In this document: in pieces, positions 32,796 through 44,723 of the stretch | How the letters are laid out: each line of letters begins with the position of its first letter | How positions within the stretch are numbered: position 1 is the first letter of the stretch | From: Azospirillaceae bacterium | GTDB taxonomy: Bacteria; Pseudomonadota; Alphaproteobacteria; Azospirillales; Azospirillaceae | Assembly: GCA_035645145.1 (NCBI GenBank) | Contig: DASQNC010000071.1 | Coordinates: 124,001 to 188,000, forward strand | Length of the DNA: 64,000 bases | Direction: 5' to 3' | Notes under the pieces: generated by a model | Told to the model about the DNA's origin: nothing | Databases searched by the model: none | The model's input: only the letters and a program-made list of their open reading frames with translations | Position numbers and translations under genes: made by a program

Positions 32796-33200
32796 TCAGT
32801 GGCTCATGCTCTGGAGGGCCTTCTGGCAGGCTTCCTCGCAACTCCGGCAGGCCTCGGCGCAGATGCGGCAGTGGTCGTGCATGGAGGCGTGCCGCTCGCA
32901 TTCCTCGGCGCACAGCCGGCACGCGGTGGCGCAGGCTTCGAGCATCGCCCGGATCACGCTCTCGTTCGAACCGCTGCGGCGGGTCGCGATGGCACCGGTG
33001 GCGGCGCACACGTCGGCGCAGTCCATGTTGAGGCGGATGCACTGCACCAGCTCGGCGACCATGCCCTCGCCCAGACAGGCGTCGGCGCAGGTGGTGCAGG
33101 ACTGGGCGCAGGCGTAGCATTCCTCGATGCAGCGGATGAGCGCGTCGTTGGTGTTGCCGCGGACATGGGGATGCGTGCTGATCATCTCGCGGACGTGCAT
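32796..33200 (-). CDS. Four-helix-bundle copper storage protein (Csp3/DUF326-like)
   Basis: The product has 134 residues and 18 Cys, most spaced C-x2-C, C-x3-C or C-x6-C along helices (EECYACAQSCTTCADAC, then DCADVC, ACRLCAEEC and CRICAEACRSCEEAC). This is the pattern of Csp proteins, which fill the core of a four-helix bundle with many Cu(I) ions. The ATG at 33200 follows AGGAGGA, and no signal peptide or Tat motif is present, so this is the cytosolic Csp3 type. It adjoins chromate and copper resistance genes and should sequester excess cytosolic Cu(I). Confidence 0.92.
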   Translation of the reverse strand: MHVREMISTHPHVRGNTNDALIRCIEECYACAQSCTTCADACLGEGMVAELVQCIRLNMDCADVCAATGAIATRRSGSNESVIRAMLEACATACRLCAEECERHASMHDHCRICAEACRSCEEACQKALQSMSH

Positions 33201-33445
33201 GAGCGAACTGTCCTCCTGGCCATCGATTGGGCGGAGCCGTTCCAACCCTTCCGTTGATGGCCCCTCTGCCAACACGGATCGGACGGAAGCGTTTCGCACG
33301 GGTTGCAGCCGGGGAAACCGCCGGTGTTTTCCAGTTGACGGCCGCCCTGCATCGCGCTTCCCTTTGGGCACGGGGGCCCTGCGATCCCCCCGTCAGGCCA
33401 AGGGCCCAAGTATCGCGCTCCACCCTTCACAGGGAGCGCAGGGCC

Positions 33446-34279
33446 GTGCCTTTTTGCAGCAGCATCCCCATCCACGATCTGTCCGGCCGGATTGGCACGC
33501 CGGAGTGTCCGGTCATCGTCGATGTCCGCGGCGATGAGGATTTCTCCGCCGATCCCCGCCGGATCCCGGGCTCGGTCCGCCGCAGCCATAAGGACATCGG
33601 GTCCTGGGCGCCCGCGTTGGCGGACCGTCCCGTCGTGGTCGCCTGCGAACGGGGTGAAAAGCTGAGCCAGGGGACCGCCGCATGGCTGCGCCACCTCGGC
33701 CTCGACGCGTACATCCTGGAGGGCGGGTTCGAGGCCTGGCGGGCGGCGGGCGAACTCCTTGTGCGAACCGACATGCTCCCGCAGCGCGATCCGCAGGGCC
33801 GGACCGTCTGGGTCACCCGCGAGCGGCCCAAGGTGGACCGCATCGCCTGCCCCTGGCTGATCCGCCGCTTCGTCGACCCGGCCGCCGTGTTCCTGTTCGT
33901 GGAGGCGTCGCAGGTGGAACGGGTCGCCGACCGGTTCGGGGCGGTGCCGTTCGACGTCGACGGGGTATTCTGGGGTCACCGGGGCGAGCGCTGCACCTTC
34001 GACACCATGATCGAGGCGTTCGGCCTGCGCTCGGATGCGCTCGACCGTCTGGCGGCCATCGTGCGCGGCGCCGACACGGCCCGTCCCGATCTGGCGCCCG
34101 AGGCGTCCGGCTTGCTCGCCGCGTCGCTGGGCCTGTCGCGGCTGTTTGGTGAAGACCTCCGGCAACTGGATGCGGGTATGACCCTTTACGACGCACTGTA
34201 CCTGTGGTGCCACGACGCATCGCACGAAACCCACGGCTGGTCCCCGGTCCGGACGAGCACGAAGGCGGTGAAGGCATGA
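33446..34279 (+). CDS. chrB: ChrB-type chromate resistance protein with N-terminal rhodanese domain
   Basis: The product has 277 residues from a GTG codon with GGGAG upstream; longer in-frame starts exist but run into unrelated sequence. Residues about 5-105 are a rhodanese fold (CPVIVDVRGDEDF, then an active-site-like loop VVACERGEKLSQG and ILEGGFEAWRAAG). Residues about 120-270 are the ChrB domain (WVTRERPKVDRIACPWLIRRFVDP, CTFDTMIEAFGL and a late YDALYLWCHD). ChrB proteins regulate or assist ChrA-mediated chromate export. The stop overlaps the chrA start by four bases. Confidence 0.92.
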   Translation: MPFCSSIPIHDLSGRIGTPECPVIVDVRGDEDFSADPRRIPGSVRRSHKDIGSWAPALADRPVVVACERGEKLSQGTAAWLRHLGLDAYILEGGFEAWRAAGELLVRTDMLPQRDPQGRTVWVTRERPKVDRIACPWLIRRFVDPAAVFLFVEASQVERVADRFGAVPFDVDGVFWGHRGERCTFDTMIEAFGLRSDALDRLAAIVRGADTARPDLAPEASGLLAASLGLSRLFGEDLRQLDAGMTLYDALYLWCHDASHETHGWSPVRTSTKAVKA

Positions 34280-35685
34280 GGACGCTGAACGGCACAACCG
34301 TTTCGTCGGCGCGGCCGGGCGCCGGATACCCGTCGCTCGGCGAGGCCGTGCGGACCTGGGCGCGCATCGCGGCGCTCAGCTTCGGCGGTCCGGCCGGGCA
34401 GATCGCGGTGATGCACCGCATCCTGGTGGAGGAGAAGCGCTGGATCGGCGAGACCCGGTTCCTGCACGCGCTCAACTACTGCATGCTGCTGCCGGGCCCC
34501 GAGGCCCAGCAGCTCGCCGTCTACATCGGCTGGCTGATGCACCGCACCGCCGGGGGCCTGATCGCGGGCATCCTGTTCGTGCTGCCGGGCGTCGTCGCCA
34601 TCCTGGCGTTGAGCTGGATCTACGCCGTCTTCGGCAACGCGGGACCGGTCCAGGGCCTGTTCTTCGGCCTGAAGGCCGCCGTGCTCGCGGTCGTGCTCGA
34701 CGCGGTCGTCCGCATCGGGAAACGGGCGCTGCGGAACCGGGCGATGCTCGCCCTCGCCGCCACGGCCTTCGTCGCCATCTTCGCCTTCGACGTGCCATTC
34801 CCCCTCATCATCCTGGCGGCCGGCCTGATCGGCTTCGCCGGCGGTCGGGCGGGGGTGGCGGCCTTCCAGGGCGGTGGCGGTCATGGCAAGGCCGGCGCCG
34901 GAAAGGCGGTCGCGGACGCGGACACGCTTTTGGGCGAGGGCGTCCCCGCCCATGCCCGGCCCACCGTCGGCTGGTCCCTGCGGATCGGCGGCATCCTCCT
35001 GGCGCTGTGGCTGGTGCCAACGGCGGCCCTGGTGGTGCTGTCGGGCGGGGGCGTCTTCGCGGATATCGCCGTCTTCTTCTCGAAAATGGCGGTGGTGACC
35101 TTCGGCGGCGCCTATGCCGTTCTCGCCTATGTCGCCCAGCAGGCGGTGGAAGGCTTTGGCTGGCTCCAGCCCGGCGAGATGCTGGACGGCCTCGGCATGG
35201 CCGAGACCACGCCCGGTCCGCTGATCATGGTGGTCCAGTTCGTCGGCTTCATGGCGGCGTTCCGGGACCCGGGGCCGTTGCCGCCGCTGCTGGCGGGCAC
35301 GCTGGGCGGCCTGCTGACCACCTGGGTCACCTTCGTGCCGTGCTTCCTGTGGATCTTCCTGGGGGCGCCGTTCGTCGAGGCCCTGCGCGGCAATCGGGCG
35401 CTGTCGGCCGCGCTGTCCGCGATCACGGCGGCGGTGGTCGGCGTGATTCTGAACCTCGCGGTCTGGTTCGCGCTCCACGTCCTGTTCCGCGAGGTGGGCC
35501 GGGTCCGGTTTGGCCCGGTGGCGCTCGACATCCCGAACCCGGCCTCCATCGACCTTGCGGCGCTGGCCCTGACGGTCGCCGCCCTGCTGGCGGTGTTCCG
35601 GTTCAAGATGGGCATGATCCCGGTGCTCGCCGCCTGCTCGGCCGCCGGCATGCTCCACCATCTTGCCACCGGCCTCGCGGGCTGA
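34276..35685 (+). CDS. chrA: Chromate transporter ChrA (long, two-domain)
   Basis: The product has 469 residues with about 10-12 membrane helices and two CHR repeats. The first contains FGGPAGQIAVMHRILVEEK and LPGPEAQQLAVYIGWL; the second contains KMAVVTFGGAYAVLAYVAQQ and ETTPGPLIMVVQFVGF. CHR proteins export chromate from the cytoplasm. It is the second gene of chrB-chrA-MFS, coupled to chrB by an ATGA overlap, with 6 bases before the next gene. Confidence 0.96.
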   Translation: MRTLNGTTVSSARPGAGYPSLGEAVRTWARIAALSFGGPAGQIAVMHRILVEEKRWIGETRFLHALNYCMLLPGPEAQQLAVYIGWLMHRTAGGLIAGILFVLPGVVAILALSWIYAVFGNAGPVQGLFFGLKAAVLAVVLDAVVRIGKRALRNRAMLALAATAFVAIFAFDVPFPLIILAAGLIGFAGGRAGVAAFQGGGGHGKAGAGKAVADADTLLGEGVPAHARPTVGWSLRIGGILLALWLVPTAALVVLSGGGVFADIAVFFSKMAVVTFGGAYAVLAYVAQQAVEGFGWLQPGEMLDGLGMAETTPGPLIMVVQFVGFMAAFRDPGPLPPLLAGTLGGLLTTWVTFVPCFLWIFLGAPFVEALRGNRALSAALSAITAAVVGVILNLAVWFALHVLFREVGRVRFGPVALDIPNPASIDLAALALTVAALLAVFRFKMGMIPVLAACSAAGMLHHLATGLAG

Positions 35686-35691
35686 GGCGGG

Positions 35692-36984
35692 ATGACCGCG
35701 CCGACGACGCGGCGGTTCGGCCAAGGACCGGCCGGTGCCCCGTCCGAGGTCCGGCTGCTGCTCGGCGCGCGGGCCTTGCGGGCCTTCGGCGACGGGCTGG
35801 TCAGCCTGCTGCTGCCGGTCCACCTCGTCCGGCTGGGCTTCGACGCCGTCGGAATCGGAGTGCTGGCCACGGCGACCCTGGCCGGGTCGGCGGTCCTGAC
35901 CCTGTCCGTCGGCCTTTATGCGCACCGCTTTCCCCCGCGCACACTTCTGCTGTGCGCGGGCGTGCTGATGGTCGCCACGGGCCTGTTGTTCCCGCTCGCC
36001 GACGGGTTCTGGCCCCTGTTCCTGATCGCCCTCGTCGGCACCATCAACCCGTCCTCCGGCGATGCCAGCGTCTTCCTGCCGTTGGAACAGGCACGGCTGG
36101 CCCAGGCCGTCCCCGACCGCGACCGGACCGGGCTGTTCGCCCGCTACAGCCTGATCGGGTCCCTCTCGGCCGCCTTCGGGGCACTGTGCGCCGGCGGGCC
36201 CGAAGTCCTGGCCTCGGCGACGGGTATCGACGCGGGCACGGCGGTCGAAGGGGCCTTCGTCGTGTACGCGCTGCTGGGGGTGGCGTCCCTGCTGCTGTAC
36301 CGGCGGCTGCCATCAACGCCGACGGGTGGGGCATCGGTGGATGCGGGGCAGGCGCCGGTCGCGCCGCTGCGGGAATCCCGCGGCATCGTGCTGCGTCTGG
36401 CCGCGCTGTTTTCCCTCGACTCCTTCGCCGGCGGCCTCGTCGTGCAGTCCCTGCTGGCGCTGTGGCTGTTCGAGCGGTTCGGGCTGTCGCTGGCAGTGGC
36501 CGGGGCGGTCTTCTTCTGGACCGGGGTTTTGTCGGCGTTCTCGTACCTGGTGGCCGTGCGGATCGCGGCCCGGATCGGCCTCGTCAACACCATGGTGTTC
36601 ACCCATCTTCCGGCGAACGTTTGCCTGCTGCTGGTCCCCCTCGCACCGGGGCTTGGCACCGCCATCGCACTCCTGCTGGTCCGCAGCCTGTTGTCGCAGA
36701 TGGATGTGCCCACCCGCACGTCCTACGTGATGGCCGTGGTGACGCCCGGCGAGCGGGCCGCCGCCGCAAGCGTGACGGCGGTGCCCCGGAGCCTCGCCGC
36801 CGCTCTCGGCCCGCTGCTCGCCGGGCATCTGCTGGCGGCTTCGGGGTTCGGATGGCCCCTTGCGCTCGGCGGAGGCCTGAAGATCGCCTACGACCTCATG
36901 CTGCTGGCCCTGTTCCGGAATGTCCGGCCACCCGGGGAGGCAGGCGGACGACACAGGGACAGGGCCATGGAAAAAGGCCCTTGA
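35692..36984 (+). CDS. MFS transporter of the chromate operon
   Basis: The product has 430 residues with 12 predicted helices. MFS signatures are loose: GDGLVSLLLPVHLVRLGF in helix 1, YAHRFPPRTLLLCAG after helix 2, and LLSQMDVPTRTSYVMAVV in the second half. It is tightly spaced after chrA, so it should be co-expressed with chromate resistance, but its substrate is unknown. The -35 element of the downstream copper promoter overlaps its stop codon. The C-terminus is short and charged. Confidence 0.9.
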   Translation: MTAPTTRRFGQGPAGAPSEVRLLLGARALRAFGDGLVSLLLPVHLVRLGFDAVGIGVLATATLAGSAVLTLSVGLYAHRFPPRTLLLCAGVLMVATGLLFPLADGFWPLFLIALVGTINPSSGDASVFLPLEQARLAQAVPDRDRTGLFARYSLIGSLSAAFGALCAGGPEVLASATGIDAGTAVEGAFVVYALLGVASLLLYRRLPSTPTGGASVDAGQAPVAPLRESRGIVLRLAALFSLDSFAGGLVVQSLLALWLFERFGLSLAVAGAVFFWTGVLSAFSYLVAVRIAARIGLVNTMVFTHLPANVCLLLVPLAPGLGTAIALLLVRSLLSQMDVPTRTSYVMAVVTPGERAAAASVTAVPRSLAAALGPLLAGHLLAASGFGWPLALGGGLKIAYDLMLLALFRNVRPPGEAGGRHRDRAMEKGP

Positions 36985-37011
36985 CCCTCCCATCGCTGGA
37001 AGGTCGAGGCT
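36981..37011 (+). promoter_or_regulatory. CueR-type promoter/operator before copZ
   Basis: TTGACC (36981-36986) serves as -35. An imperfect dyad GACCCTCC-7-GGAAGGTC (36983-37005) occupies the long 19-base spacer typical of MerR-family promoters, and a poor -10 (GAGGCT) follows. The layout is the same as the E. coli copA CueR box. It lies 30 bases before the HMA-domain gene and overlaps the stop of the MFS gene. Confidence 0.82.
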
Positions 37012-37041
37012 CGCGACGATCAGCCAACCCAGGAGGCAGAT

Positions 37042-37239
37042 ATGTTGAAGTTCAAAGTCGACGGGATGACCTGCGGCCACTGCGCGCAGACCGTGACCAA
37101 GGCGGTCCAGTCCGTTCCGTCGGTCACCCGCGCCATCGTGGATCTGAAGGCCGGTGAGGTGACGGTGGAAGGTGCCGCCGACGCCGGCGCCGTCCGTCAG
37201 GCCATCGAAGACGCCGGATACGAGGCCAAGGCCGCGTGA
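37042..37239 (+). CDS. copZ: CopZ-like copper chaperone (HMA domain)
   Basis: The product has 65 residues and is one complete heavy-metal-associated domain, with the metal site GMTCGHC near residue 8 and a closing DAGYEA. AGGAGG lies upstream. CopZ carries Cu(I) in the cytosol and hands it to the CopA ATPase or CueR. A CueR-type operator precedes it, and a strong 17-bp hairpin follows within 16 bases of its stop. Confidence 0.93.
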   Translation: MLKFKVDGMTCGHCAQTVTKAVQSVPSVTRAIVDLKAGEVTVEGAADAGAVRQAIEDAGYEAKAA

Positions 37240-37254
37240 TGCGGCGTCCGGTGT

Positions 37255-37292
37255 GGACAGCACCCCGGACGGTGTCGTCCGGGGTGCTGTCC
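37255..37292 (+). terminator. 17-bp perfect stem-loop after copZ
   Basis: GGACAGCACCCCGGACG (37255-37271) pairs perfectly with 37276-37292 around a GTGT loop. It lies 15 bases after the copZ stop and about 57 bases before the next gene on the same strand. Lacking a T run, it may be a partial terminator or a stabilising 3' hairpin that keeps copZ mRNA more abundant than the downstream genes. Confidence 0.65.
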
Positions 37293-37348
37293 CACCGGGC
37301 CTCGACGGCTGCGACCACCGACTGCAACCCTCGCCAGGTCCTCGCTGC

Positions 37349-37795
37349 ATGACCCTGCGCGCGCGGCTCCTCCTCCGCAGGCTGTCCCGACCCCATGGCC
37401 TGTTCCGGGCGGTGGCGGTCCTCCTCGTGCTGGTGATGGTTGGCCAGGTCGTGGGCGCGTCCGTTCTCGCCGCGCAGTGCCTGGACGGGCATCAAGCCGC
37501 GGGCGGGCACGCCATGGGTGAGCACGCCACGGGCGGACATGGGACCATCGACGATGGGCGGCATGCGGATGCCGCCGATGCGCTGGACCGTGATCGCGAT
37601 GGGGAACAGGGTCTGAGCGGGCAGGCTGCCGCCCTGTGCGGCGGCGGTGCAACCGGTTGCATGGCTTGCCCGGTCCTTGCCGGCTCGGCCCCGGTGGCGC
37701 GGAAGATGGCCTGTGACCCGGTCCATTCCAAAACCGGGGTCTTCTCGCCCATCGACCCCGGCGTCGAGAGCCGACCACCGATCGCCGCCCTCTGA
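37349..37795 (+). CDS. Exported His/Cys-rich small protein of the copper locus
   Basis: The product has 148 residues. A basic N-terminus and one hydrophobic helix (AVAVLLVLVMVGQVVGASVL, about 22-41) act as signal or anchor. The rest is periplasmic and metal-binding in character: GHQAAGGHAMGEHATGGHG, then CGGGATGCMACP with three Cys and a later Cys-x3-His. It resembles the loosely defined DUF2946-type proteins of copper loci, but that match is uncertain. The position between copZ and the oxidase operon suggests periplasmic copper handling. The ribosome site before the ATG is weak. Confidence 0.65.
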   Translation: MTLRARLLLRRLSRPHGLFRAVAVLLVLVMVGQVVGASVLAAQCLDGHQAAGGHAMGEHATGGHGTIDDGRHADAADALDRDRDGEQGLSGQAAALCGGGATGCMACPVLAGSAPVARKMACDPVHSKTGVFSPIDPGVESRPPIAAL

Positions 37796-37905
37796 TCGTC
37801 CGCCTTGGGCGGAGGCGTCCGGACCTTGTCATGTCCGCTCCCTTGCCCAGCCATCGCCGGTCCGCGCGTCGGCGCGCCCGCAACCCAGACGAACAGAGAT
37901 TTTCC

Positions 37906-38244
37906 ATGGCCTTCAAAGGACCCCTCCTGGCCGGCGCCCTGATGCTGGCGCCCGCCGTTGCCGTCGCCTCGTCCCATATCGGCGGCCACCCCGCGCGGCC
38001 GGTTGGCACAACGGGCGCGGCTTCCTACGAGTCCCCGTTTGCGGCCGGTGTGCCGCTTCTGGACCGCAGTGCGGCCCATCCGTCCTACGGCCCCGCCCCC
38101 GAGGGCGTCGCCGCGGAGGACACGGACGCGCAGGCGCCCGCGGCCGACCCTTCCAGCATGGACCATTCCAAGATGGGCCACGGCGCCATGAACCACGGCG
38201 CGCCGCCCCAGTCGCAGCCGCCCGGGAAAGGGGGAGCGCAATGA
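37906..38244 (+). CDS. Periplasmic Met/His-rich small protein
   Basis: The product has 112 residues. Residues 1-22 form a Sec signal peptide (MAFKGPLLAGALMLAPAVAV, then A-S-S). The mature part is low in structure, Ala/Pro-rich, and near its end carries MDHSKMGHGAMNHG, the Met-x-His/Met-x-x-His motif that binds copper in PcoE/CopB-type proteins. Its stop overlaps the start of the outer-membrane lipoprotein gene by four bases, so the two are coupled. It probably buffers or delivers periplasmic copper to the oxidase encoded two genes later. Confidence 0.8.
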   Translation: MAFKGPLLAGALMLAPAVAVASSHIGGHPARPVGTTGAASYESPFAAGVPLLDRSAAHPSYGPAPEGVAAEDTDAQAPAADPSSMDHSKMGHGAMNHGAPPQSQPPGKGGAQ

Positions 38245-39404
38245 CCGTTTCGCCACGCACCGTCCGTTCGGCGGCTTTGACCGGGCTGATCCTGGCGCTG
38301 CTGGGCGGCTGCTCCGCCACCACGTTCGACACCTTCCCGACCACCGCGCAGGTGGTCGAGCAGGGCGACCTCCTGCACCGCGGGCCGCCGCTGACGTCCA
38401 GCACGTTCCAGGCGGCCGTGGACCAGCGCATTGCGGAACTCGTCGCCCAACCCCTGGATCTGCAATCGGCACTTGAGATCGCGGTGCTGAACCAGCCGCG
38501 GCTGCAGGGCATCTACCTGGCCCAGAACGTCAACTATCCCAGCTTCGTCGAGAAGCTCGCGGCGGCCCGCGCCAGCGATCCGGGCACCTCGGTGGAGTGG
38601 GCCGCGGTCCGTCTCGCCCTGCTTCCCGCCGTCAACCGCATGTCCCGGTACGAATTCGCCGAAGCCTACGCGGGCATCGCGCCGGAGTTCGTGACCACCG
38701 CCGAGCACATCAAGAAGGAATGGTACGCGGCCGTCGCCGCCCACCAGACCGAGGCCATGATGCGGCAGGTGGTCGACGCCCTGCGCGCCCAGGCCGAACT
38801 CGCCAACGAACAGTACCGGTCGGGGACGGTGTCACGGGGCGAACAGGCCAAGCGGCACATCGCCCTGGGGTCGGTGCTCAAGGAGCATGCCGCGGCCAAG
38901 CGCGAACTGGTCGAGGCGCGCGAGGCGCTGGTGCGCCACCTCGGCCTGTGGGGCGACTTGGCCGACATCAAACTGCCCGACCGCCTGCCCGATCTGCCGG
39001 CCGAGGCCGCCAAGCTGGACGGCATCGAGGACTACGCCCTGGCCAACCGCATGGACGTGGTGGCGGCCCGGCACAAGGGTGGCGCCTGGAGCAAGGCCGT
39101 CGCCGCCCGCTCGCAGGCCCGCGAGGCCTATGCGAATTACCTGACCGCCTACGACACCGCCAAGTACCAGCGGGACGTGGTGATGCCGCTGACCCAGGTC
39201 AGCCTGGAATTCGCCCAGCAGGAATACAACGGCATGCTGATCGGCGTGTACGACCTGCTGGCGGAGGTCCAGGAACAGATCGAAGCCGGCAAGGACTACA
39301 TCGAGACGCTGCGCGATTTCTGGACCGCCGAGGCCGAACTCATCAGCGCCCTGGGCGGCAGCCTGCCCGGCCGGTCCGCCTCTTCGAAAGGCTCCCAGTC
39401 ATGA
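38241..39404 (+). CDS. TolC-family outer-membrane lipoprotein of the copper locus
   Basis: The product has 387 residues. A lipobox (LALLGGC) closes the signal peptide, and most of the rest is long amphipathic helices of the outer-membrane efflux family (QPLDLQSALEIAVLNQPRLQ, then RHIALGSVLKEHAAAKRELV and YDLLAEVQEQIEAGKDY). At 387 residues it is shorter than usual TolC/CzcC proteins (about 420-480), so one repeat may be reduced. No RND pump or adaptor is encoded nearby; instead it is coupled by ATGA overlaps to the Met-rich protein upstream and the multicopper oxidase downstream. That arrangement parallels copA-copB loci in which an outer-membrane protein accompanies the oxidase. Confidence 0.87.
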   Translation: MTVSPRTVRSAALTGLILALLGGCSATTFDTFPTTAQVVEQGDLLHRGPPLTSSTFQAAVDQRIAELVAQPLDLQSALEIAVLNQPRLQGIYLAQNVNYPSFVEKLAAARASDPGTSVEWAAVRLALLPAVNRMSRYEFAEAYAGIAPEFVTTAEHIKKEWYAAVAAHQTEAMMRQVVDALRAQAELANEQYRSGTVSRGEQAKRHIALGSVLKEHAAAKRELVEAREALVRHLGLWGDLADIKLPDRLPDLPAEAAKLDGIEDYALANRMDVVAARHKGGAWSKAVAARSQAREAYANYLTAYDTAKYQRDVVMPLTQVSLEFAQQEYNGMLIGVYDLLAEVQEQIEAGKDYIETLRDFWTAEAELISALGGSLPGRSASSKGSQS

Positions 39405-40696
39405 ACCGCCGTCAATTCCTGGCCAGCTCCGGCACCGGCCTGATCGCCGGGGCCGGACTCGTCTCCACCGCCGCCGCCGCGACGCCGGGCGAGGCCCCGC
39501 GGTTCACGTCCCCCGGCACCCGCGCCCCGATCCGTCCGACCGGCGGGCAGGGGTACACGCCGGTGGTCACGCTGAACGGCGGCTCGCTGCCGTGGCGCAT
39601 GAACAACGGGGTGAAGGAGTTCCATCTCGTCGCCGAGCCCGTGAAGCGCGAGGTGGCGCCCGGCATGGAACTCAACCTCTGGGGATACAACGGAAGCTCG
39701 CCGGGGCCGACCATCGAGGCCGTCGAGGGCGACCGCATCCGCATCCTCGTCACCAACAAGCTGCCGGAGCACACCACCGTGCACTGGCACGGCCTGTTCC
39801 TGCCGTCCGGCATGGACGGGGTCGGGGGCCTGACCCAGCCGCACATCAAGCCGGGCCAGACCTTCGTCTACGAGTGGACGCTGCGCCAGAGCGGCACCTT
39901 CATGTACCACCCGCATGCGGACGAGATGGTCCAGATGGCGATGGGCATGATGGGCCTGTTCATCGTACACCCGAAGGACCCCGCGGCCCACCGGGTCGAC
40001 CGCGACTTCGCCTTCCTGCTGGCAAGCTACGACGTCGACCCCGGGACCTACGTCCCGAACACGGCCGAGATGACGGACTTCAACATCTGGACCTTCAACA
40101 GCCGCGTCTTCCCCGGCATCGACCCGTTGGTCGTACGCAAGGGGGACCGGGTCCGGATCCGCGTCGGCAACCTGACCATGACGAACCACCCGATCCACCT
40201 GCACGGGTATGCGTTCACGGTCACCGGGACCGACGGCGGCTGGGTGCCGCCGTCGGCGCGGTGGCCGGAGGTCACGGTCGACGTGCCGGTCGGCGCCATG
40301 CGCGCCATCGAGTTCGTGGCCGACGAGGAGGGCGACTGGGCCCTGCACTGCCACAAGTCGCACCACACAATGGGCGCGATGGGCCACGCGGTCCCGAACA
40401 TGATGGGCGTGCGCCAGCAAAAGGTGACGCCGACCATCTCGAAGCTCCTGCCGGGCTACATGTACATGCCGATGGGCGAGAACGGCATGGCCGAGATGCA
40501 GGACATGCCCGGCATGGGCATGCACCCGCCGGAGAACACGCTGCCCATGATGATGGGCGAGGGGCCGTTCGGCCCGCTGGAGATGGGCGGCATGTTCACG
40601 GTCCTGAAGGTGCGCCGGGATGTGAAGCCCGGCGACTACACCGATCCGGGCTGGTACGCGCATCCGCCGGGCACCGTCGCCTATGAGCGCAAATAG
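39401..40696 (+). CDS. Tat-exported two-domain multicopper oxidase
   Basis: The product has 431 residues. A twin-arginine signal (NRRQFLASS) shows folded export to the periplasm. Domain 1 (about 55-185) carries the trinuclear-site ligands HWHG and YHPH; domain 2 (about 190-335) carries HPIHLHG and HCHKSHHTMGAM, with the type 1 Cys, His and Met ligands. Only two cupredoxin domains are visible, and type 1 ligands lie only in the second, so this looks like a type-B two-domain oxidase that would act as a trimer. The tail is Met-rich (MYMPMGENGMAEMQDMPG). It probably oxidises Cu(I) to the less toxic Cu(II). Confidence 0.93.
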   Translation: MNRRQFLASSGTGLIAGAGLVSTAAAATPGEAPRFTSPGTRAPIRPTGGQGYTPVVTLNGGSLPWRMNNGVKEFHLVAEPVKREVAPGMELNLWGYNGSSPGPTIEAVEGDRIRILVTNKLPEHTTVHWHGLFLPSGMDGVGGLTQPHIKPGQTFVYEWTLRQSGTFMYHPHADEMVQMAMGMMGLFIVHPKDPAAHRVDRDFAFLLASYDVDPGTYVPNTAEMTDFNIWTFNSRVFPGIDPLVVRKGDRVRIRVGNLTMTNHPIHLHGYAFTVTGTDGGWVPPSARWPEVTVDVPVGAMRAIEFVADEEGDWALHCHKSHHTMGAMGHAVPNMMGVRQQKVTPTISKLLPGYMYMPMGENGMAEMQDMPGMGMHPPENTLPMMMGEGPFGPLEMGGMFTVLKVRRDVKPGDYTDPGWYAHPPGTVAYERK

Positions 40697-40698
40697 GG

Positions 40699-40733
40699 AA
40701 AAGGCCCGACCCGTCCGCCGGGTCGGGCCTTTT
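40699..40733 (+). terminator. Rho-independent terminator after the multicopper oxidase
   Basis: AAAAGGCCCGACCCG (40699-40713) pairs perfectly with CGGGTCGGGCCTTTT (40719-40733) over 15 bp around a 5-base loop, immediately after the stop codon and ending in TTTTC. It ends the oxidase operon. Confidence 0.92.
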
Positions 40734-41085: not shown

Positions 41086-41116
41086 TTGACCTTCCAACCT
41101 CTGGAAGCATCAGAAC
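41086..41116 (+). promoter_or_regulatory. CueR-type promoter/operator before the DUF4396 gene
   Basis: TTGACC (41086-41091) is followed by the dyad GACCTTCC-7-GGAAGCATC (41088-41111; the left half-site is perfect, the right degenerate) and, 19 bases after the -35, by CAGAAC as a possible -10. Architecture matches the sites at 36981 and 41757. Confidence 0.75.
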
Positions 41117-41168
41117 GGTGGCCAGGCTCCAAGGGGCGACGCCCCGGAAAACGGAAGGATCGGGTCCC

Positions 41169-41729
41169 ATGACGACCACGCATTCCAACCATGGCCACGA
41201 CCATGCCCATCACGGCCATGGGCACCACCACCACGGGCATCAACAAAACGGGTCTCAGCATCATGGGCCGCACCAGATGCAGGCCGCCCCGCTGAACCGG
41301 GTCGCATTCCAGGCGACGCTGCACTGCATGGCAGGCTGTGCGATCGGCGAGGTCGCCGGCATGGTCATCGGAACGTCGCTGGGCATGGGCATGTGGCAGA
41401 CGGTGGCCCTGGCCGTCACGCTGGCGTTCATCACCGGCTTCGGCCTGACCATGCGTCCGTTGCTGAAGGGCGGCATCCCGTTCCGGCAGGCCCTCGGCAT
41501 CGCGTTCGCCGCGGACTTCATTTCGGTCACGGTGATGGAGATCGTCGACAATGCCGTGATGATGCTGATCCCCGGCGCCATGCATGCCGGCCCGACCACG
41601 CTCTTCTTCTGGGTCAGCATGGCCATCGCGCTCGCCATCGCGGTTGTCGTCGCGTTCCCGGTGAACCGTTGGCTGATCATGCGGGGCAAGGGCCACGCGG
41701 TCGTCCATGCCCACCACGGGCATCACTGA
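41169..41729 (+). CDS. DUF4396 membrane protein with His-rich termini
   Basis: The product has 186 residues. The first 37 residues contain a dense His cluster (HGHDHAHHGHGHHHHGH), and the last residues again read HAHHGHH. Between them are four hydrophobic helices of the DUF4396 family, with LHCMAGCAIGEVAGMVIG (two Cys and a Glu in the first helix), MVIGTSLGMGM, FAADFISVTVMEIVDN and an SMAIALAIAVVVAFPVN helix. It should lie in the inner membrane. The family has no proven function; the CueR-type site directly upstream puts it in the copper response, where it may bind or move Cu or another metal. Confidence 0.88.
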   Translation: MTTTHSNHGHDHAHHGHGHHHHGHQQNGSQHHGPHQMQAAPLNRVAFQATLHCMAGCAIGEVAGMVIGTSLGMGMWQTVALAVTLAFITGFGLTMRPLLKGGIPFRQALGIAFAADFISVTVMEIVDNAVMMLIPGAMHAGPTTLFFWVSMAIALAIAVVVAFPVNRWLIMRGKGHAVVHAHHGHH

Positions 41730-41756: not shown

Positions 41757-41787
41757 TTGACCTTCCTATTGTTGGAAGGTCGATCCA
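41757..41787 (+). promoter_or_regulatory. CueR-type promoter/operator before copA
   Basis: TTGACC (41757-41762) and a perfect dyad GACCTTCC-TATTGTT-GGAAGGTC (41759-41781) give the 19-base spacer used by CueR, followed by GATCCA as -10. It is nearly identical in layout to the E. coli copA CueR box and lies about 30 bases before the copA start codon, leaving a very short leader. Confidence 0.9.
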
Positions 41788-41817
41788 TGGGGCAACTTGA
41801 GGCAACAGGAACTGATC

Positions 41818-44259
41818 ATGGTCACCGCAGCCGTACAGGAACGGGACGCGCCGTCCGCGAAGGCGGCCTCCGAAATGGACATCGGGATCGGCGGCATGAC
41901 GTGCGCTTCCTGCGTGGCGCGCGTCGAGAAGGCGATCCGCAAGGTGCCGGGGGTGACGGACGTGTCCGTGAACCTGGCCACCGAGAAGGCGCGCGTCGCA
42001 TTCGCGGACCCGGTTCCGAACACCCAGGACGTCATCGCCGCCATCAGCGGCGCCGGGTACGAGCCCGCGACGACCGCCGTGGACCTGCGGGTCGAGGGCA
42101 TGACCTGCGCGTCCTGCGTCGGCCGTGTTGAAAAGGCTTTGAAAAAGGTTCCCGGCGTCGCCGAGGCCGCGGTCAATCTGGCGACCGAACGCGCCCACGT
42201 CGTGGGCCACGGCATCGACCCGGCATCGCTGGTCGCGGCCGTGGAGAAGGCCGGCTACCAGGCCTCCCCGGTCACCGCGGACCAGACCGCCAAGCAGGCG
42301 GCGGACGAGGGGCCGGAGCGCAGCCGCCGCGAACTGCGGCATGTGCTGATCGGTGCGGCGCTGTCGCTGCCGCTGGTCATCGGCATGATCGGCGACATGC
42401 TCGGCTACGACATCATGCCGCCGGGCTGGCTGCAACTGGTGCTCGCCACGCCGGTTCAGTTCTGGCTGGGCGCGCGTTTCTACAAGGCGGCCTGGAAGGC
42501 GGTGCGGGCCGGCGCCGGCAACATGGACCTGCTGGTCGCCATCGGGACCACGGCCGCCTGGGGTCTCAGCGTCCACATGCTGATGAACTCGCACCCCGGA
42601 CACATGCCGCACCTGTATTTCGAAGGGTCGGCGGTCCTGATCACCTTCGTGTTGCTTGGCAAGTGGCTGGAAACCCGCGCCAAGGGGCAGACGGCCGCGG
42701 CCATCCGGGCGTTGATGAACCTGCGTCCCGAAACCGCCCGCGTGCGCCGGGACGGCGCCGAGGTTTCGGTGCCCGTCGACCAGGTCCGGCGCGGCGACTT
42801 CGTGCTCGTCCGCCCGGGCGAGCGGGTGCCGGTGGACGGCGTGGTGGTCGAGGGGGCCGGCAGCGTCGACGAGTCCATGCTGACGGGTGAGCCGCTGCCG
42901 GTGGAAAAGGCCGTCGGCGCGGCTGTGACCGGCGGCTCCATCAACGTCGACGGCCTGCTGGTGGTCGAGACCACCGCGGTCGGCACCGAGACCATGCTTT
43001 CGAAGATCGTGCGTCTGGTCGAAGGGGCGCAGGCGTCCAAGGCGCCCATCCAGCGCACCGTGGACAAGGTCAGCGCGGTCTTCGTCCCCATCGTCCTGCT
43101 GATCGCACTGGCCACCCTGGCCGTGTGGTGGTTCGTGGCGGACGACATGGAGACCGCCATCGTCACGGCGGTGTCGGTCCTGGTCATCGCCTGCCCGTGC
43201 GCCCTCGGCCTCGCCACGCCCACCTCGATCATGGTCGGGACCGGCGCCGCCGCGAAGCACGGCATCCTGATCAAGGACGCGGAAGCCCTGGAGCGGGCCC
43301 ACGCGGTCACGACCGTCGCCTTCGACAAGACCGGCACGCTGACGGTCGGCAAGCCGCAGGTCACCGACATCGTCCCCGCCGCCGGACCGACCGAGGCGGA
43401 GCTGCTGCGCATTGCGGCCACCCTCCAGCAGGGCAGCGAGCATCCGCTGGCGCACGCCGTCCTGGCCCGCGCCGGTGACGACGGGGTCGCCCCGGCCACC
43501 CTGTCGGATTTCAAGGCCCTGGCGGGACGCGGCGTGTCCGGCACGGTGGATGGCAGGTCGGTGCAGTTCGGCGCCAAGCGGCTCATGGCCGAGAGCGGGA
43601 TCGCCATTGCGGATCTCGAAGCCAAGGCGGCGGAACTGGAGGCGTCCGGGCGGACCGTCTCCTGGCTGGCGGAAGTCGCGCCGGACCGGCGGGTGCTGGG
43701 TCTGGTCGCGTTCGGCGACACCATCAAGGAAAGCGCGCGCGAGGCCGTGCGTGGGCTGCATGCCCAGGGCATCGAGACCGTGATGGTGACCGGCGACAGC
43801 CGAGGCGCCGCGAATGCGGTCGCCAAGGAACTCGGCATCGACCGCGTGTTCGCCGAGGTGCTTCCCGGCGACAAGGCCGACGTCGTCGCGACCCTGAAGC
43901 GCGAAGGCAAGGTGGTCGCCATGGTCGGCGACGGCATCAACGACGCCCCGGCGCTCGCCGCCGCCGACGTCGGCATCGCCATGGCGACCGGCACCGATGT
44001 TGCCATGCACACCGCCGGCGTCACCCTGATGCGCGGCGATCCCGTGCTGGTCTCCGGCTCCGTGGACGTGTCGCGGCGCACCTACGCGAAAATCAAGCAG
44101 GGCCTGTTCTGGGCCTTCGCCTACAATGTGATCGGCATTCCGCTGGCCGCGCTCGGCTATCTGAGCCCCGTCCTCGCGGGCGGCGCCATGGCACTGAGTT
44201 CGGTCAGCGTGGTCCTGAATGCACTGACGCTCCGGGGCTGGAAGCCCCGGGGCAACTGA
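41818..44259 (+). CDS. copA: Copper-exporting P1B-type ATPase CopA
   Basis: The product has 813 residues from ATG 41818 (AGGA 9 bases upstream). Two N-terminal HMA domains carry GMTCASC at about residues 27 and 94. P1B features are the membrane CPC motif (about 459-461), phosphorylation site DKTGT (about 503), a TGE motif in the actuator (SMLTGEPLP), the SEHPLA nucleotide motif and GDGINDAP (about 703). The last helices carry YN (FAYNVIG) and M-x-x-S-S, as in Cu(I) ATPases. It pumps Cu(I) from cytosol to periplasm, where the multicopper oxidase can oxidise it. cueR follows 14 bases later. Confidence 0.97.
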
Positions 44260-44273
44260 CCACGGAGGGGGCC

Positions 44274-44723
44274 ATGAACATCGGGCAGGCCGCGAAGGCG
44301 TCCGGCGTGAGCGCCAAGCTCATCCGCTACTACGAGAGCATCGGGCTGATCCCCGAGGCGGGCCGGACCGCTTCGGGCTACCGGGTCTACACGCAGCAGG
44401 AGGTGAACATCCTGCGTTTCGTGAAGCGGGCGCGGACGCTCGGCTTCAGCATCGAACGCATCCAGCACCTTGTGGGCCTGTGGCGGGACAAGCAGCGGGC
44501 CAGCGCCGAGGTGAAGCGGATCGCCCTGGAGCACGTGGCCGAGCTTCAGGCGAAGATCGCCGAAATGAAGTCGATGAGCGACACCCTCCAGGAGCTCGCC
44601 GAGGCTTGCCACGGCGACCATCGGCCGGATTGTCCGATCCTGCGGGATCTTGAAAGCCCGTCCCACAAGGTCGAGGATCATTGCCATCCGGCCGCCAGGC
44701 CGAAACTCGCCGCCACCGCTTAG
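44274..44723 (+). CDS. cueR: CueR, MerR-family copper-responsive activator
   Basis: The product has 149 residues. The winged-helix DNA-binding part starts MNIGQAAKASGVSAKLIRYYE and contains ASGYRVYTQQEV; a dimerisation helix follows (about 80-118). The metal loop has two Cys separated by seven residues (C-HGDHRPD-C), the CueR/HmrR signature for Cu(I)/Ag(I)/Au(I). A further His/Cys pair near the C-terminus (EDHCHP) is an extra. It is the obvious regulator for the three dyads at 36981, 41086 and 41757. GGAGG precedes the start; it is transcribed with copA. Confidence 0.95.
   Translation: MNIGQAAKASGVSAKLIRYYESIGLIPEAGRTASGYRVYTQQEVNILRFVKRARTLGFSIERIQHLVGLWRDKQRASAEVKRIALEHVAELQAKIAEMKSMSDTLQELAEACHGDHRPDCPILRDLESPSHKVEDHCHPAARPKLAATA

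Follow-up and report, generated by a model that had tools for sequence, protein, structure and literature searches.

We analysed a 64,000-nucleotide stretch (hereafter the window) of contig DASQNC010000071.1 from an Azospirillaceae bacterium, in which three overlapping genes encode a small secreted Met/His-rich protein, a TolC-like lipoprotein and a multicopper oxidase, and found that the TolC-like protein has lost the segments that form the outer-membrane β-barrel in its family. Barrel-less proteins of this kind, 24 sequences in all, recur beside related oxidases in other bacteria, and the barrel has been lost independently at least four times. A pump-less TolC beside a two-domain oxidase is a known, little-studied arrangement; the barrel-less TolC within this module, arisen several times, is the new part. 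No description of barrel-less TolC proteins was found in the literature, as judged from titles and abstracts, a limited survey that is weak evidence of novelty. The gene chain and the features of the TolC-like protein are as follows:

37906–38244, plus strand: secreted Met/His-rich protein with the motif MDHSKM, 112 amino acids (aa) (reading frame)
38241–39404, plus strand: barrel-less TolC-like lipoprotein, 387 aa (reading frame, alignment, AlphaFold2 model)
38310–38312, plus strand: lipobox cysteine 24 (LGGC24) of the TolC-like protein (sequence)
38574–38591, plus strand: helix-helix turn, residues 112–117, in place of the first β-hairpin (alignment, model)
39078–39098, plus strand: helix-helix turn, residues 280–286, in place of the second β-hairpin (alignment, model)
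39225–39239, plus strand: YNGML, residues 329–333, tip loop of the second helical hairpin, on the periplasmic side (alignment, model)
39401–40696, plus strand: twin-arginine translocation (Tat)-type two-domain multicopper oxidase, 431 aa (reading frame, Pfam, model)

These frames and the 4-base ATGA overlaps at both junctions (38241–38244 and 39401–39404) bear out the coupled three-gene chain proposed in a first-pass annotation of the window.

Loss of the barrel from the TolC-like protein

In the TolC or outer-membrane factor family (OprM, CusC, CmeC; PF02321), each protomer contributes four β-strands, arranged as two hairpins, to a barrel in the outer membrane. The window protein shares with this family the helical body and, with CusC and OprM, the lipobox, whose Cys24 is invariant in the window clade; it differs from these channels in that its model shows no β-strand, that no pump or adaptor is apparent, and that its tip carries YNGM, a motif missing from the few control channels examined. 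Alignment with relatives showed the second β-hairpin to be wholly absent (~75 aa, including adjoining helix ends) and the first to be shortened by about a dozen residues, with 22 and 0 residues of hairpins 1 and 2 present in the window protein against 33 and 38 in the reference. Searches with the window protein break in two at residue 284 in barrel-bearing relatives, which carry about 72–93 additional residues at the hairpins. The three homologues L142, L143 and L170, from another alphaproteobacterial family (f38), gave one continuous match each at 43–47% identity with a 3-aa insert; they are of the same length, likewise barrel-less, and share the same four-gene order. AlphaFold2 models the window protein as helix throughout, with zero strands (mean predicted local distance difference test score, pLDDT, 84.4) and tight turns at residues 112–117 and 280–281 in place of the hairpins; helices 118–194/199–234 and 282–330/336–370 correspond to the family's two long helical hairpins in the periplasm, each ending in a tip loop, and the fold matches CmeC, TolC, OprM and CusC at Z ~20 over ~300 residues. 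The ‘short outer-membrane efflux lipoprotein’ of the first-pass annotation is therefore better described as a protein that has lost its β-barrel segments than as simply a short channel.

A copper efflux channel of the CusC type, working with a resistance-nodulation-division (RND) pump encoded elsewhere and for which the short length is unimportant, would also show a TolC fold, a lipobox and a copper context. No RND pump was found on the 252-kb contig, in agreement with the earlier view that the lipoprotein lacks one, and each of the genome's four RND pumps has a multidrug model as its best match, none reaching the CusA/CzcA cut-off (TIGR00914). The copper-type RND partner elsewhere that might have overturned that view is thus rejected at the level of the genome. 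With no barrel, no pump of the CusA/CzcA type and a PF02321 score just under the cut-off (21 bits against 22; the relative L142 scores 32.9 bits, above it), we regard a CusC-like role as scarcely credible. The operon resembles CusCFBA in its link to copper and in its lipidated TolC-type protein, but is without RND pump, adaptor or channel. Classical CopA-CopB (PcoA-PcoB) likewise pairs a copper oxidase of the periplasm with another envelope protein; there, however, CopA has three domains, CopB (PF05275) is another kind of outer-membrane protein, and the pair is not at the window locus. A three-domain CopA followed by CopB does lie on another contig of the same genome (G000:C74, L174:5546-8177), where a cytochrome c-like gene follows, and this separate pair, together with the missing CusA-type pump, supports the earlier distinction of the window system from both CusCFBA and CopAB.

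Pairing with the oxidase, independent origins and selection

The oxidase matched only the Pfam domains Cu-oxidase_3 and Cu-oxidase_2 and begins with a twin-arginine motif, RR-QFL. Its trinuclear-site His motifs are complete (HWHG 128, HPH 170, HPIHLHG 263, HCH 316) and, with both arginines of the Tat motif, are invariant across 35 oxidase relatives; its single cysteine, Cys317, sits inside HCH of domain 2, so that the type 1 site lies solely in that domain. The AlphaFold2 model contains two cupredoxin domains, not the three that would have contradicted the first-pass annotation, which had correctly described a Tat-exported enzyme of two such domains with its type 1 site in the second. The top fold matches of the model are two-domain laccases, with 2zwn, 3gdc and 3g5w as fold relatives of type B. 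The window enzyme resembles type B two-domain multicopper oxidases in its two cupredoxin domains and top structural matches, but adds to them a ~65-residue Met-rich stretch after HCH, a Tat signal and an operon with TolC. That stretch (17 Met within residues 320–400) is poorly defined in the model.

Scanning genome contigs with the window TolC alone returned nothing, since this protein is too diverged, and loci were found with the oxidase as query. Among the 80 closest genome loci (closest, not random), the 76 with sufficient upstream DNA all carry a TolC-family gene directly 5′ of the oxidase (66 of 76 under a strict distance rule, the other ten differing solely by uncertain oxidase start codons), which supports the functional coupling of oxidase and TolC-like lipoprotein suggested earlier. 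In a plasmid search the oxidase appeared at 60–80% identity in 336 records. The pump-less pair is thus present as annotated, but is widespread rather than peculiar to this genome; cupredoxin, CusF-like and CusRS-like genes are its usual neighbours. By gene order, not by accession, we equate the module with the multicopper oxidase (MCO) operon of Sinorhizobium meliloti CCNWSX0020, which comprises Omp, CueO, an azurin-like protein and a copper chaperone (PMC6266702), and in which copper induced omp 646-fold and cueO 243-fold, and mutation of omp gave copper hypersensitivity (PMC4932525). Both systems place a TolC-family gene directly 5′ of a copper oxidase in a copper context. This gene order recurs in rhizobial plasmids, and the rhizobial relatives have a complete barrel-bearing TolC with azurin-like and CusF-like genes 3′, whereas the window TolC is barrel-less and surrounded by copZ, CueR sites, DUF4396 and CopA ATPase genes. 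No azurin-like or CusF-like gene occurs 3′ of the window oxidase, where a terminator is followed by the DUF4396 and CopA ATPase genes.

A phylum-wide sample gave two further continuous matches to the window TolC (L178 and L188), which led to a large barrel-less clade in Comamonadaceae, found in about 15 of 300 genomes sampled in that family, and single additional cases occur at L046, L062 and L208. In the Comamonadaceae clade the barrel-less gene is followed by copper oxidase, cupredoxin-type and CusF genes, and the signal peptides look to be of the ordinary type, without a lipobox. The barrel-less proteins of Hydrogenophaga sp. BPS33 and Comamonadaceae bacterium OS-4 are annotated ‘hypothetical protein’, and the group has consequently gone unnoticed in annotation; at L213:7058-8170 (Hydrogenophaga sp. 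BPS33, WP_236582117.1) and L214:6025-7134 this hypothetical protein is encoded between CusRS genes and the copper oxidase. Beyond the window, the oxidase adjoins 22 of 23 barrel-less loci, the remaining locus ending too early to tell. On the oxidase tree the barrel-less state must have changed at least four times, each of the four being required by branches with good support, and a single origin of the barrel-less group was rejected (approximately unbiased (AU) test on the oxidase tree, p-AU 6e-65). FastTree gave five changes on the oxidase tree and five on a tree of the shared TolC columns. Trees alone do not separate gain from loss of the barrel, and we read the changes as losses because the barrel is general across the TolC superfamily.

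The barrel-less genes have long intact frames in two bacterial classes, with pairwise dN/dS of 0.07 to 0.17 in the Comamonadaceae clade and 0.12 in that of f38; the window TolC's own comparison gave 0.38, resting on saturated dS. An assembly error or decay as the origin of the short TolC was rejected, as other genomes carry this architecture too and keep it under purifying selection. Across 18 diverse barrel-less proteins, the best conserved of 178 segments of 15 residues starts at residue 326, at the tip of the second helical hairpin. All 24 barrel-less proteins have YNGM at this tip, as do 69 of the 96 barrel-bearing proteins whose locus includes an oxidase (YN.M in 88 of 96). None of the 10 channel proteins used as controls has it, in a set that is small and imperfect and includes some duplicates or wrongly chosen frames. 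The tip of TolC faces the periplasm and is the place where efflux adaptors bind.

These observations bear on whether the protein might be a degenerate TolC remnant, kept only for the overlap and hence the translational coupling to the oxidase. The 4-base overlaps with both neighbours fit such a remnant, as does the faster evolution of the TolC proteins than of the oxidases, evident from identities to barrel-bearing relatives of ~26–36% and ~66–72%, respectively. Purifying selection, the sharply conserved tip, intact frames of this length and the same architecture in two bacterial classes argue against it, and make it very improbable.

A family of short secreted proteins is encoded just 5′ of TolC at 99 loci, some with a Met/His tail, with the consensus adPadp..vpa..yrSvfagyrsyrpvepkpWrelNdaVapk. 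A profile of this partner matches the N-termini of the barrel-less TolCs of L062 (E 4.5e-12) and L208 (6.5e-11) and, more weakly (mostly 1e-4 to 1e-6, on a short W-N-V stretch), those of most of the Comamonadaceae clade, and matched none of the barrel-bearing TolCs (best 0.18), all E-values being computed for small sets. On this profile evidence the partner appears to be fused to the helical TolC body in three barrel-less lineages, which points to physical contact. In the apparent fusions at L062:4944-5996, L208:1462-2406, L178:1051-2220 and their relatives, the partner would take the place of the lipid anchor. Homology between the window MDHSKM protein and this DPADP-W-LN-V partner family could not be shown, as the partner profile does not recognise it, and the two are counterparts by position only.

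Possible roles of the TolC-like protein

TolC-family proteins are known as ducts, and the first-pass annotation envisaged the three products as a periplasm-to-outside copper oxidation and disposal system. The disposal part is not supported: the lipoprotein no longer has the hairpins with which the barrel crosses the outer membrane and contains nothing able to span it, so the model fails for this protein on its own, and a periplasm-to-outside duct is unlikely here. With moderate confidence, we favour the window operon being a CueR-controlled system for Cu(I) oxidation in the periplasm, with the TolC-like protein as a lipid-anchored scaffold for the oxidase. The oxidase would be exported folded by Tat and would oxidise Cu(I) to Cu(II) in the periplasm, while the TolC-like protein, lipid-anchored and helical throughout, would retain the lower periplasmic end of TolC after losing the membrane-spanning barrel. 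Its coiled-coil tip would hold or position the oxidase, and the Met/His protein with it, at the inner face of the outer membrane, and a threefold TolC body would fit a threefold oxidase, making such docking attractive. The Met/His protein, which has a signal peptide-like N-terminus and the tail MDHSKMGHGAMNHG, could, judging by its sequence, plausibly bind copper. Gene order and neighbourhood, the loss of the barrel and its repetition, purifying selection and the conserved tip are observed, whereas we infer the trimers, the physical contact, the scaffolding, the CueR control and the direction of copper flow in this scheme.

Several points weigh against the scaffold. The pLDDT of the AlphaFold2 model is only 63–73 at residues 90–140, the site of the former hairpin 1, and the input to the model consisted mainly of barrel-bearing relatives. 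Cu(I) oxidation is assigned to the window oxidase from its family, the contact between TolC-like protein and oxidase is deduced rather than read from a complex, and the conserved tip could bind a partner other than the oxidase. As the partner profile leaves the window Met/His protein unmatched, the argument from fusions has no direct bearing on that protein.

The main rival assigns the TolC-like protein to oxidase maturation or copper delivery: acting with the Met/His protein, its helical body would present the apo-oxidase or hand copper on to it. The strict association with the oxidase speaks for this, as does a Met/His gene joined by overlap to the same chain, and multicopper oxidases are known to have dedicated accessory genes, such as cutF for CutO of Rhodobacter capsulatus (PMC8456105). 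The composition of the TolC-like protein points the other way: with few Met and His (7 each) and a lone Cys that is the lipid site, it is no obvious copper carrier, and we consider a maturation role unlikely. Less likely again is an export function in which the barrel-less body joins another outer-membrane protein, such as CopB, and feeds it oxidised copper. Barrel-bearing relatives are complete TolC-type channels and a CopA-CopB pair is present on another contig, both in keeping with export, but the operon itself encodes no second outer-membrane protein. In the Comamonadaceae forms the lipid anchor is missing as well, an argument for a soluble role in the periplasm, and the CopB relative PcoB is reported to facilitate copper uptake, not export (PMC9210255).

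Extending the oxidase scaffold beyond the window, we put forward more tentatively that TolC proteins have repeatedly become barrel-less periplasmic proteins whose sole job is to dock a copper oxidase through the former adaptor-docking tip; barrel-bearing relatives may serve both as duct and as oxidase holder. If true, this would be a non-transport function of the TolC fold, and barrel-bearing members of the module would also use TolC partly as an oxidase holder. Natural barrel-less TolCs, kept by selection beside one enzyme, separate the two halves of TolC, making the role of the pump-less Omp in copper oxidase operons directly testable. Should barrel-less forms sustain copper tolerance, TolC-mediated export cannot explain everything, also for the rhizobial Omp, which is important for copper tolerance.

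Probable CueR control and neighbouring genes

The chain lies among further copper genes and regulatory sites:

36984–37004, plus strand: CueR-type operator ACCCTCCCATCGCTGGAAGGT, 1 mismatch; probably the promoter for copZ and the genes that follow
37042–37239, plus strand: CopZ-type copper chaperone, HMA domain (domain match)
37349–37795, plus strand: small secreted Cys/His-rich protein, 148 aa (open reading frame)
40703–40733, plus strand: strong intrinsic terminator, GGCCCGACCC-loop-GGGTCGGGCC-TTTT, directly 3′ of the oxidase (sequence)
41118–41729, plus strand: His-rich DUF4396 membrane protein (domain match), preceded at 41089 by a weak CueR-like site (2 mismatches)
41760–41780, plus strand: CueR-type operator, perfect, 5′ of the Cu-ATPase (motif scan)
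41797–44259, plus strand: CopA-type copper P-type ATPase with two HMA domains (GMTCASC twice and CPC in the translation)
44274–44723, plus strand: CueR copper(I) regulator (above the TIGR02044 cut-off)

CueR-type sites with at most one mismatch number two in the 64 kb, against 0.01 expected, and judging from the operator and terminator the transcript probably runs from 36984 to 40733, under CueR. The sites at 36984 and 41760 serve here as a proxy for induction by copper. No convincing CueR sites were found at the f38 operons L170, L171 and L172, so CueR control is not general in the barrel-less clade. The Cys/His-rich protein at 37349–37795 has no Pfam match; in the f38 relatives L142, L143 and L170 a similar small Cys/His protein precedes the Met/His gene, whose counterparts by position there have MDHSNM/MDHGNM tails. 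The DUF4396 protein, whose gene sits between those of the oxidase and the Cu-ATPase, has a long His-rich N-terminus.

On the minus strand at 32796–33371 is a gene for a Cys-rich DUF326 protein, of the type that binds copper in a four-helix bundle; its long N-terminal stretch may reflect a wrong start. Adjoining the copper genes, at 33227–35685, are chromate resistance genes for a chromate transporter and for a ChrB-like protein that contains a rhodanese domain.

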